This document shows, piece after piece, positions 5,187-8,765 of a DNA stretch of 46,302 nt (its first letter is position 1; every line of letters starts with the position of its first letter). This DNA is from Erysipelothrix sp. Its GTDB lineage: Bacteria > Bacillota_I > Bacilli_A > Erysipelotrichales > Erysipelotrichaceae. Under the pieces are notes generated by a model. It was not told the DNA's origin and made no database searches. It was given only the letters and a program-made list of their open reading frames with translations. The position numbers and the translations under genes were made by a program. Where the stretch lies: contig JAAYEW010000128.1 in the NCBI GenBank assembly GCA_012728555.1, forward strand, positions 1-46,302, given 5' to 3'.

Positions 5187-6107
5187 CTATTTATTTAAAT
5201 AAGCAATTGCTTCTTGAGCAGCTATCGCTCCATCTGCAGTAGCCGTAACAATTTGTCTCAATGTTTTTTGATTCATATCTCCAACTGTGTAAAGACCTTG
5301 AACTGAAGTTTCCATTCTGTCATTCGCAATTGAATACCCTTGGTCATCCAATACACCTAAGTTCTTAAGGTAGGCAGTAGCCGGATCCGATCCTATATAT
5401 GGAAATAAGCAGGACCCTGGTATAATTTTTTGTTCTTTAGTATCGACATGTTCAACTTTTAGTCCACTGAAAACTCCATTTTCAGTCATAATTTCTACTG
5501 GTACGTGTTTCTTAACAATCTCAATCTTAGGGTTATTATAAACTTTTTCTTGAGTTCCAATTTCACCTCTAAAGACATCGCGTCGAATAACAATCGTCAC
5601 TTTGCTAGCGAACTGTGTTAAGTAAAGAGATTCATCAAGAGCAGAGTTTCCTCCACCAACAACAACTACTTCTCTTTCTTTGTAAAATGCTCCATCACAG
5701 ACCGCACAGTAAGAAACTCCTTTTCCAACAAGTTCTTCTTCTTGATCTAGACCAATTTTTCTTTCAACAGTACCAGTCGCTGCGATAACTACTTTAGAAG
5801 TAAAAGTTTCTCCATGCTCTGTTACTACTTCAAAGCCCCCAACGATTTGTTTGACATCAATGACATTACCATAAGCATAAGTTGCACCAAATGATAATGA
5901 ATGTTCATGCATCTTCATTGATAGGTCTACCCCTGTGATAGATTTCTCTCCAGGATAGTTTTCTACAAGATGGGTTTTTACCATCTTTCCTCCAGGTGCA
6001 CTTGATTCTACAATAAGTGTTTTAAGTTCGGCTCTACTAGCGTACACAGCAGCTGACATTCCTGCAGGTCCACTTCCGATAATTATTAAATCGAATAATA
6101 TATCCAT
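5187..6107 (-). CDS. trxB: thioredoxin-disulfide reductase
   Basis: GSGPAGMSAAVYASRA, redox CAVCDG, VVGGGNSALDE, TVGDMNQKTLRQIVTATADGAIAA. Confidence 0.95.
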   Translation of the reverse strand: MDILFDLIIIGSGPAGMSAAVYASRAELKTLIVESSAPGGKMVKTHLVENYPGEKSITGVDLSMKMHEHSLSFGATYAYGNVIDVKQIVGGFEVVTEHGETFTSKVVIAATGTVERKIGLDQEEELVGKGVSYCAVCDGAFYKEREVVVVGGGNSALDESLYLTQFASKVTIVIRRDVFRGEIGTQEKVYNNPKIEIVKKHVPVEIMTENGVFSGLKVEHVDTKEQKIIPGSCLFPYIGSDPATAYLKNLGVLDDQGYSIANDRMETSVQGLYTVGDMNQKTLRQIVTATADGAIAAQEAIAYLNK

Positions 6108-7546
6108 TGTCTTTCCTCCTTCACAATTGAATTTATTTCGTCAATTGACTGTATCATTCTATTTGGTTTTGCGTTTATTAGTTGATCTACACGATTCCCA
6201 TTCGTTGTAAATCCAATGGTATATGCATTCGCATTAATTCCAGTTTCTATATCAACAACACTATCTCCTACAAAGATGACATTATCGTGATAGCCATCGA
6301 GTTGATTCACAATTGTTTCGACAACTCGTTTGTCTGGCTTTACGTATTCTACATTATCAGGGCCAATAAATAAATCAATATACTCTAACATCCCCGTTTG
6401 ATCCAATGCTAGTTTAATCATTTCTGTTTTCTTGTTACTAGCAATCGCAATACAATACCCTTGTGCTTTCAAATCTTTTAGTGATTCCATCGCATGATCC
6501 ATCGGCTTGACTGTCGTTGGATGAAGTTCGATCGCAATTTGACGATATTGGCTAATGAGTTCATCGATATTTGGATTATCCACAACTTTCCTAAAACTCT
6601 CGACCAATGTTGGTCCAATAAAGGAATCCAATACTTCTTCGGATAAATCCATCGTCAATTGTTTACCCTTAAGTACATGTATAAAAGCTTGTTTAATGTT
6701 ACTTTCAGTATCCATTAGAGTCCCATCAAAATCATAAATAATAATCGGTTTCTTGGTTTTAAAGATTTTTCTAATAACACCGAAGTATCCAATAAGACCT
6801 ACAACAATAAATGCTACCGATGTGACTTGGGCAATTTTAAGTCCAGTACCAAAGAATGGTAAATAGTCGGTTCTAAAGGACTCAATGTAGAAACGTACAA
6901 TTCCATACCAGATTAGATAGGCATAGACTAGGTCTCCTTTTTTGTATTGATTTCGTTCATGTAAACCAAAATGAATTACTAAAAAGCCAAAAACATTGAG
7001 AGCTGATTCCATTAAAAACGTTGGCATTCTGTAATGACCAGCAATCAGCATACCTTCTTTAATGAATGTTGGTAATAAAGCAAAGAAACTTTCGTCGACC
7101 ACTGGTCCAAAAGCTTCTTGGTTCATAAAGTTACCCCAGCGTCCTAATGCTTGAGCGACAAGTACGGTGTATAAAATTTGGTCTGCTAAATGTAGAAATT
7201 GAAGCTTTCTTTTCTTAGCAAAATAGTAGCCATAGAGTACTCCAAAAAAGAGACCTCCATGAATCGCAAGTCCACCTTGCATAAAGTTGAATATTTGGAT
7301 TGGATTTTGTAAATAACTGGATAAATCATAGAAAACGACATACCAAAGTCTAGCTCCTAAAATCCCTGATAATAGCGCACCAAAGAAAAGATCTTCAGCG
7401 ATTTCCTTTGAATATCCTTTTTTCTTTAGATTTCGTGCACTGATCGCATACGCGAAGATTGCTCCTAATAAAATAAAAACTGCATAATATTTAATTTCTA
7501 AAGGTCCAACACTGATTAAAGTCTGACGGTCTGGAAAAAACTTCAT
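6086..7546 (-). CDS. lgt: fusion protein: prolipoprotein diacylglyceryl transferase (Lgt) + HAD-family phosphatase (PpaX-like)
   Basis: N-terminal Lgt sequence (GLAIHGGLFFG, ALGRWGNFMNQEAFG) continues in one frame into a HAD domain (IIIYDFDGTLMDTE...VKPDKR...FVGDSVVDIETG). Likely start MKFFPDRQTL at 7546 with a GAGG SD. Confidence 0.93.
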   Translation of the reverse strand: MKFFPDRQTLISVGPLEIKYYAVFILLGAIFAYAISARNLKKKGYSKEIAEDLFFGALLSGILGARLWYVVFYDLSSYLQNPIQIFNFMQGGLAIHGGLFFGVLYGYYFAKKRKLQFLHLADQILYTVLVAQALGRWGNFMNQEAFGPVVDESFFALLPTFIKEGMLIAGHYRMPTFLMESALNVFGFLVIHFGLHERNQYKKGDLVYAYLIWYGIVRFYIESFRTDYLPFFGTGLKIAQVTSVAFIVVGLIGYFGVIRKIFKTKKPIIIYDFDGTLMDTESNIKQAFIHVLKGKQLTMDLSEEVLDSFIGPTLVESFRKVVDNPNIDELISQYRQIAIELHPTTVKPMDHAMESLKDLKAQGYCIAIASNKKTEMIKLALDQTGMLEYIDLFIGPDNVEYVKPDKRVVETIVNQLDGYHDNVIFVGDSVVDIETGINANAYTIGFTTNGNRVDQLINAKPNRMIQSIDEINSIVKEERQWIYYSI

Positions 7547-7623
7547 AAAACACCTCAATTCAAGTTTAATTATATCATCCCCAAGAATTTGCAACAATAC
7601 AAAGACTTCCAACATCTTTTTCC

Positions 7624-7660
7624 AAAAAAAAGACCTGACTATTATTTATCAGGTCTTTTT
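7624..7660 (-). terminator. strong intrinsic terminator between hprK and lgt
   Basis: AGACCTGA / TCAGGTCT stem flanked by A7 and T-runs, so potentially active on both strands. Confidence 0.8.
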
Positions 7661-7800
7661 TATTGTTTTTTATTCAATAAGGGGAAAGAGAGAGTGCAAA
7701 CCAGTATCTTAGGGGGAGAATCTGCTTGCAAGTAAGTTATATTTAACTTACACCCATAGTATACTGGAGAACCCTCTTTAAAATAACGAAAATCTATGTG
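7661..7800 (-). ncRNA. candidate structured RNA (6S-like rod or 3'-UTR/leader element); strand inferred from the terminator
   Basis: Three nested complementary arms: 7685-7690/7774-7779, 7701-7707/7761-7767, 7732-7738/7745-7751. Followed on the minus strand by the 7624-7660 terminator. No ORF in this interval. Confidence 0.35.
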
Positions 7801-7811
7801 AGATTATGGGA

Positions 7812-8765
7812 TTATTTATTTTCTGAATTTTTCTTTTTAATCATATTGTAAACACGTTCTTCAAAATCTTTACTCGAATCAAATCCTCTACGTTTTAAAG
7901 TAAAATCGATTACAGCAGATTCAACCAACATAGCCATGTTTCTTCCTTCTTTAACCGGGAAGACTAATCTAGGGACTTGAATACCTAAGATACTGTAAGG
8001 TTCTGTTTCTTCAATCCCTATTCTCAAATAATCTTTTTGATCATCCCAACTTTCTAAGTTGATTACAAAATCGATCACCGAACGACTCATAACGGCGGAG
8101 GCACCAAACATTTGGGCAGCATTCATAATTCCGATACCTCTTATTTCAAGCATACCACTTAACAATTCAGGAGCATGACCAATAAGCTGTCCATGAGTAC
8201 GTTTAACATCGACTCGATCGTCTGCGATTAAAATGTGTCCGTTACGAATTAATTCTAACGCAATCTCTGACTTACCCATTCCAGAGTCTCCTGTCACCAA
8301 AACACCTTTACCATGAACGTTAACTAATACTCCATGGACATATTCGACTGGAGATAATGCTTCATCTAAATAAGTAACAGTGTCTATTAATAGTTGTGAG
8401 GTTGATAAAGATGATACAAATATCGGGAAGTTCTTACGATTAGCAAGCTCATTTAGAATTGGTGGGCATGGTAAATCATGAGCAATAATAATTGCCGGTG
8501 TCCAACCATCGGTTAACATTTCGAATCGTTCCCATTGGTCTTCTTCTTTCATTTGATTGACATATGCCATTTCTTTAAGTCCCATAATGACGACTCGACG
8601 AGGTTCTGTGTGATCATAAAATCCAGCTAATTCCAGCCCAGGTCGATTGACATCGGGAACAATAATCCATCGTTCCAACGATTGATCATTTCCTGTAATT
8701 TGTTCAAAATTAAAATGCTCTTTAAAATCACGAATCAAACATTTGATTTCTTCTTGATGCTCCAT
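7812..8765 (-). CDS. hprK: HPr kinase/phosphorylase
   Basis: Walker A GDSGMGKSEIALELI, signature MLEIRGIGIMN; adjacent to lgt. Confidence 0.95.
   Translation of the reverse strand: MEHQEEIKCLIRDFKEHFNFEQITGNDQSLERWIIVPDVNRPGLELAGFYDHTEPRRVVIMGLKEMAYVNQMKEEDQWERFEMLTDGWTPAIIIAHDLPCPPILNELANRKNFPIFVSSLSTSQLLIDTVTYLDEALSPVEYVHGVLVNVHGKGVLVTGDSGMGKSEIALELIRNGHILIADDRVDVKRTHGQLIGHAPELLSGMLEIRGIGIMNAAQMFGASAVMSRSVIDFVINLESWDDQKDYLRIGIEETEPYSILGIQVPRLVFPVKEGRNMAMLVESAVIDFTLKRRGFDSSKDFEERVYNMIKKKNSENK

Follow-up and report, generated by a model that had tools for sequence, protein, structure and literature searches.

The window, by which we mean the whole 46,302-nucleotide stretch of Erysipelothrix DNA that was analysed, carries on its minus strand a single frame that encodes a whole Lgt followed by a whole HAD-family phosphatase. 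Lgt, an antibacterial target, carries out the first step in the modification of bacterial lipoproteins, and PpaX is the HAD-family pyrophosphatase of Bacillales, the gene for which lies beside lgt. An earlier note on this DNA, which gave no strand, had described the frame as an uninterrupted fusion of Lgt and a PpaX-like HAD phosphatase inside a conserved operon. Both points held: the 2 halves of the product, P0001, are complete (residues 9–254 for Lgt and 269 to about 480 for the C1-cap phosphatase), and the gene lies within a conserved uvrA-hprK-lgt-ppaX-trxB-rapZ neighbourhood. The features of the locus are collected in Table 1. The 22-bp overlap with trxB is the commonest arrangement in fused loci, and hprK adjoins upstream in nearly all f1, f11 and f21 loci. 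A 2008 genome-context paper on the PTS (PMC2405797) described hprK (ptsK) as a neighbour of lgt and trxB in Firmicutes and Mollicutes; its passages on hprK context make no mention of a fusion. We found no earlier description of the Lgt-HAD fusion in a literature search that covered a minority of subscription journals.

Table 1. Features of the lgt-HAD locus, in positions of the window
Feature	Positions	Strand	Basis or remark
trxB-like thioredoxin reductase gene	5187..6107	-	start overlaps the end of the fusion gene by 22 bp
Lgt-HAD fusion gene	6086..7546	-	single frame, 486 aa plus stop (P0001)
HAD half, residues 263–486, C1-cap phosphatase	6089..6760	-	Pfam HAD_2; NCBIfam PpaX; fold matches
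Junction/linker, residues 255–268	6743..6784	-	sequence inspection; alignment of fusions
Lgt half, residues 9–254	6785..7522	-	Pfam PF01790; PDB 5azb by sequence and fold; residue mapping
Spacer; holds a candidate small RNA with a terminator hairpin at its end	7619..7765	-	
hprK, upstream neighbour of the fusion	7812..8765	-	

The longest open reading frame around the fusion gene runs from 7615 to 6086, and its conserved start is the ATG at 7546, with TTGAGGTG upstream. The junction itself (nt 6743–6784) contains neither a stop nor a frameshift; a missed stop or frameshift near 6740–6780, which the earlier note had raised against its own reading, was not borne out by the relatives, which share an uninterrupted frame of about 477–524 aa. 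We also considered an internal start for a separate HAD protein, and rejected it: residues 225–277 contain no in-frame ATG, GTG or TTG and no Shine-Dalgarno-like motif, and the first in-frame start of the HAD half, Met278, lies downstream of the nucleophile Asp272, so that a separate active HAD cannot be made in this way. It should be noted that the sequence comes from a fragmented draft of 171 contigs, in which an assembly or sequencing error might hide a stop or a shift of frame in the junction. However, the identical frame is found in a same-genus genome, in isolates such as Erysipelothrix anatis and in more than 100 loci, and we give such an error practically no weight. Chance and misassembly are excluded by this conservation over more than 100 loci, together with dN/dS ratios of ~0.02–0.1 in both halves, and the Lgt-HAD fusion is confirmed as a real gene fusion and not an artefact.

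The Lgt half matched the Pfam LGT family over its whole length (E 1.9e-64), scored above the curated cut-offs of 2 models (199.4 vs 118.9 bits for TIGR00544 and 217.7 vs 24.9 for PF01790) and aligned with E. coli Lgt (PDB 5azb) in both sequence and fold. All 8 of the catalytic residues checked are present in P0001: Y21, H96, R136, N139, E144, G147, R218 and E222, equivalent to E. coli Y26, H103, R143, N146, E151, G154, R239 and E243, respectively. P0001 and the E. coli enzyme have in common the whole Lgt domain and the residues of the catalytic network, and differ in the C-terminal phosphatase of ~220 aa that P0001 adds. His103 has been described as essential to the E. coli enzyme, in which the H103Q/Y mutants did not complement (PMC4728403). 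At the corresponding position, fused Lgts of the family have Gln in 37 cases (for example L005, L007 and L084) and Tyr in 5 (for example L098 and L102), with the other residues intact.

For the HAD half, the Pfam HAD_2 match covers residues 269–445 (E 1.4e-39), and motifs I–IV (DxD, S/T, K and the acidic pair) are complete, being represented by D272, D274, S370, K403, D428 and D432. Fold matches were 3d6j, 2ah5 and 2hsz. The phosphoglycolate phosphatase-like C1-cap HADs (PDB 2nyv, 2yy6, 3d6j, 2ah5, 2hsz) have the same fold and motif residues as the HAD half, but are only ~18–26% identical to it, and its substrate is not to be read from theirs. PpaX was the best NCBIfam model for all 10 of the HAD proteins tested. 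The HAD half scored 142.2 bits against this model (NF009804), under the equivalog cut-off of 218, as compared with 346.1 bits for a Bacillus neighbour and 325.3 for a Listeria neighbour, which served as controls; the fused HADs of f11 and f21 scored 215 bits. Gene neighbourhood, orientation and best family model are thus the same as for PpaX of Bacillales, whereas fusion to Lgt, a score well under the cut-off, and retention of the linked HAD in lineages without HprK and HPr set the HAD half apart. Since its best match is PpaX at a score that falls short of the cut-off, we regard the HAD half as PpaX-like by its position; its putative substrate is either pyrophosphate or a phosphate monoester. 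The designation PpaX-like in the earlier note can be kept for the best model and the place beside hprK; the score falls short of establishing identity with PpaX itself.

The earlier note had proposed a search for further genomes with such a polypeptide and a mapping of the fusion on a phylogeny. These revealed a family-wide fusion in Erysipelotrichaceae, and further cases in f11, f21, g135 and g81. Within the genus, G001 carries this uninterrupted fusion at 54% identity, and full-length single-frame matches were found in 30 of the other relatives sampled within the family (35 in all). Among the ~150 Lgt matches listed for 196 family genomes, almost all lie in open frames of 477–524 aa, and the named carriers include Erysipelothrix anatis, Erysipelothrix aquatica, Amedibacillus dolichus, Holdemanella biformis and Faecalitalea cylindroides. 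The short exceptions comprised some frames at contig ends, one frameshift (in G101) and a number of decayed HADs. The frameshift (L247, 2470–3755) splits the HAD half, has an ambiguous base near the break and is possibly an assembly error. Lgt, HprK and HPr all went unmatched in G016 and G080, 2 family genomes listed as 98–99% complete; they are possibly masked or unusual records. Closest relatives with separate genes, which would have told against a fusion, were not encountered, as G001 and nearly all family members are fused. Separate genes, as the earlier note had stated for hprK, lgt and ppaX of B. subtilis, occur in Bacillaceae, Listeria, Lysinibacillus and Vagococcus, where Lgt and the HAD are encoded by distinct ORFs, either adjacent or ~1 kb apart, and the sister family f2 has a stand-alone Lgt of ~270 aa, with an adjacent but separate HAD in genus g46.

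Outside the family, fused frames occur in f11 (Acholeplasma-like), f21, g135 of f6 together with L032, and genus g81 of f8; L019, which is assigned to Acholeplasmataceae, groups with f11. In a tree of the concatenated Lgt and HAD sequences, the Erysipelotrichaceae fusions formed one clade (99), as did f11 with f21 (95) and g135 with L032 (100), and the g81 pair was nested in f8, a family whose other genera keep the 2 genes apart; the long f8 branch leaves exact placement in this tree uncertain. Parsimony required 3 changes between the fused and separate states, and we rejected a single clade of all fused proteins on the basis of an AU test (p 1.3e-33). The fusion is the rule across Erysipelotrichaceae, and fused genes occur also in at least 3 other lineages of Bacilli. 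By these phylogenetic criteria the fused or separate state has changed several times in Bacilli, and some of the changes could be fissions. In 4 f8 loci (L231, 2776–4023; L238, 2538–3881; L239, 2723–4099; L235, 2981–4966), we observed an Lgt with an extra N-terminal membrane region of ~150 aa that has no Pfam match; this Lgt directly follows uvrA, at the usual place of hprK.

Between close pairs of intact fusions, dN/dS was 0.02–0.10 for the Lgt half and 0.02–0.11 for the HAD half, ratios that are approximate because many dS values were near saturation. Both halves are thus under strong purifying selection. In a survey of 105 distinct aligned proteins, one of them cut by a contig end, both active sites were kept in 95, and these intact proteins retained all HAD motif residues and all of the Lgt residues checked except position 103. 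Eight had lost most Lgt catalytic residues and kept every HAD residue (8/8); in one, the HAD had decayed and the Lgt was intact. A dead 7-helix Lgt is still fused to HAD in g28, g31 and g68, and G004 has a 6-helix Lgt remnant. The HAD stands alone beside hprK in g5, G085, G173 and part of g31, and alone also in part of g4, and in g71 the whole fusion gene is gone and hprK runs into trxB. On an HprK tree, the Lgt-decayed cases fell into about 4 lineages nested among intact fusions. The reverse decay was seen in g52, g66 and g13 (2 or 3 lineages), where Lgt is kept and the HAD nucleophile and cap are lost. Judged from these residue patterns, either half of the fusion can decay alone, a property that is new here. 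Functional coupling of the halves is therefore not obligatory, and the survival of each after loss of the other argues for 2 autonomous enzymes in one chain.

A second, stand-alone Lgt was present in every Lgt-decayed family genome that we checked (in g4, g5, g28, g31 and g68). It was of another type, and the sequences that were read carry a GRIGCFLAGCCYG-like motif. Examples of this second Lgt are L125, 3834–4664, and L132, 5318–6091. G114, which has an intact fusion and a second Lgt, is possibly an intermediate towards decay of the Lgt half.

HprK makes pyrophosphate when it dephosphorylates P-Ser-HPr, and the earlier note had suggested that the HAD half is coupled to the neighbouring gene in this way. 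On such an account the HAD would be PpaX proper, held at the membrane to clear pyrophosphate from HprK; the adjacency of hprK in almost all family loci, the best NCBIfam model, and the presence of both HprK and HPr in the genome of the window (G000) are all in its favour. However, HprK and HPr were absent from 7 of 7 f8 genomes, which are 95–99% complete, and from 3 of 3 g135 genomes, two of them at 65–71% completeness and the third at 95%, and these lineages keep Lgt and HAD fused or adjacent; in the loci of f8, trxB and/or rapZ also lie close by. Because Lgt-HAD is retained where HprK and HPr are missing, clearance of pyrophosphate from HprK cannot be the general reason for the linkage, and we rejected it as such. 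The account is weakened further by the shortfall from the PpaX cut-off, by g52, which lost the HAD yet keeps HprK and HPr, by a separate DHHA2-family pyrophosphatase candidate in G000, and by the terminator-bearing spacer that parts hprK from the fusion in this genus. Overall, we consider it unlikely that the HAD half is a PpaX serving HprK, and possible that an HprK-pyrophosphate link exists in some lineages.

An AlphaFold model of P0001, made with 20 aligned fusions, had a pLDDT of 87.1 and a pTM of 0.80, with both domains confidently predicted. In E. coli Lgt, the active site is towards the periplasm and the cytoplasmic side is positively charged (PMC4728403). The HAD of P0001 follows the seventh and last Lgt helix, and with the orientation of the E. 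coli enzyme it would lie on the cytoplasmic face, in agreement with the inner-face location given in the earlier note. It has also to be asked whether the HAD might act on the by-product of the Lgt half, since Lgt releases glycerol-1-phosphate (PMC8048626) and the fold is near that of phosphoglycolate phosphatase-like HADs. We rejected channelling of glycerol-1-phosphate, and consider dephosphorylation of its sn form by the HAD half very improbable: the exit described for this compound is periplasmic (PMC8048626), on the opposite side of the membrane from the HAD, and the HAD outlives its own dead Lgt half and dies where Lgt is intact.

We propose that, in an ancestor of Erysipelotrichaceae, lgt and a neighbouring ppaX-like HAD gene were joined in frame to give a single membrane protein with 2 functions. 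With its 7 helices, the Lgt half would work from the outer face, transferring diacylglycerol to prolipoproteins, and a linker of ~14 residues after the last helix would place a competent HAD phosphatase at the cytoplasmic face, there to hydrolyse a small phosphate, either pyrophosphate or a phosphate monoester. The 2 enzymes would act autonomously, with the fusion providing 1:1 expression and a membrane location without obligatory coupling, so that one half could decay and the other persist in some lineages. Probably, then, P0001 consists of 2 autonomous enzymes co-tethered in one chain, with the HAD cytoplasmic; we infer the HAD substrate, the autonomy of action and, from E. coli Lgt, the topology. 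Counting against autonomy, the recurrence of the fusion in several lineages hints at a benefit of linkage beyond chance. Of the physical coupling of lipoprotein modification to HPr signalling suggested in the earlier note, the shared chain of Lgt and HAD holds; hprK is here parted from the fusion by 265 bp with a terminator hairpin, and a functional coupling is not obligatory, as the halves decay alone.

Alternatively, the Lgt half might be mainly a membrane anchor, its activity being no longer needed in genomes that have a second Lgt. This would fit the dead Lgts with 6–7 hydrophobic segments that are fused to an intact HAD in g28/g4, g31 and g68, and the constraint on the membrane part of a dead Lgt. 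In the single close pair with a dead Lgt, G031/G099, dN/dS was ~0.12 for the membrane half vs 0.03 for HAD, values that point to relaxed but not neutral evolution of the dead half; since it is still constrained, attachment of the phosphatase to the membrane may itself be selected. Yet this constraint rests on that one pair, the HAD became soluble in g5 and in parts of g4 and g31, and most family members have an intact Lgt half. As a general account we consider an anchor role rather improbable. More narrowly, and still tentatively, several Erysipelotrichaceae lineages may have a new kind of protein, a phosphatase kept at the cytoplasmic side of the membrane by a dead 6–7-helix Lgt relic that selection maintains as its anchor, with lipoprotein modification carried out by the second, unlike Lgt. 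If the anchor reading were true, the fusions would have recurred because selection favoured a phosphatase located at the membrane. A family-wide fusion of which either half can decay offers a natural deletion series of which half each lineage can spare. About 7 genera of the family carry a dead Lgt or HAD relic, and product names that refer to one domain could misreport the gene.

The gap between hprK and lgt-HAD is 265 bp in the window and includes a terminator hairpin, as compared with -74 to +21 bp in most other family loci; such a terminator-bearing spacer is a feature of this genus and of a single neighbouring one. The spacer contains a candidate small RNA, found in the window and in L256, L257 and L258, with a -10-like start, 2 stem-loops that have a C-rich apical loop, and the terminator. 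It had no Rfam match, and its fold z was about -4.8 to -5.8. The exact sequence CTCTCTCTTTCCCCTTAT is common to all 4 candidates, and the shared 18-mer occurs once each in 4 of the 196 family genomes (g1 and g9), lying in the same hprK/lgt-HAD spacer in the window and wherever its position was checked.
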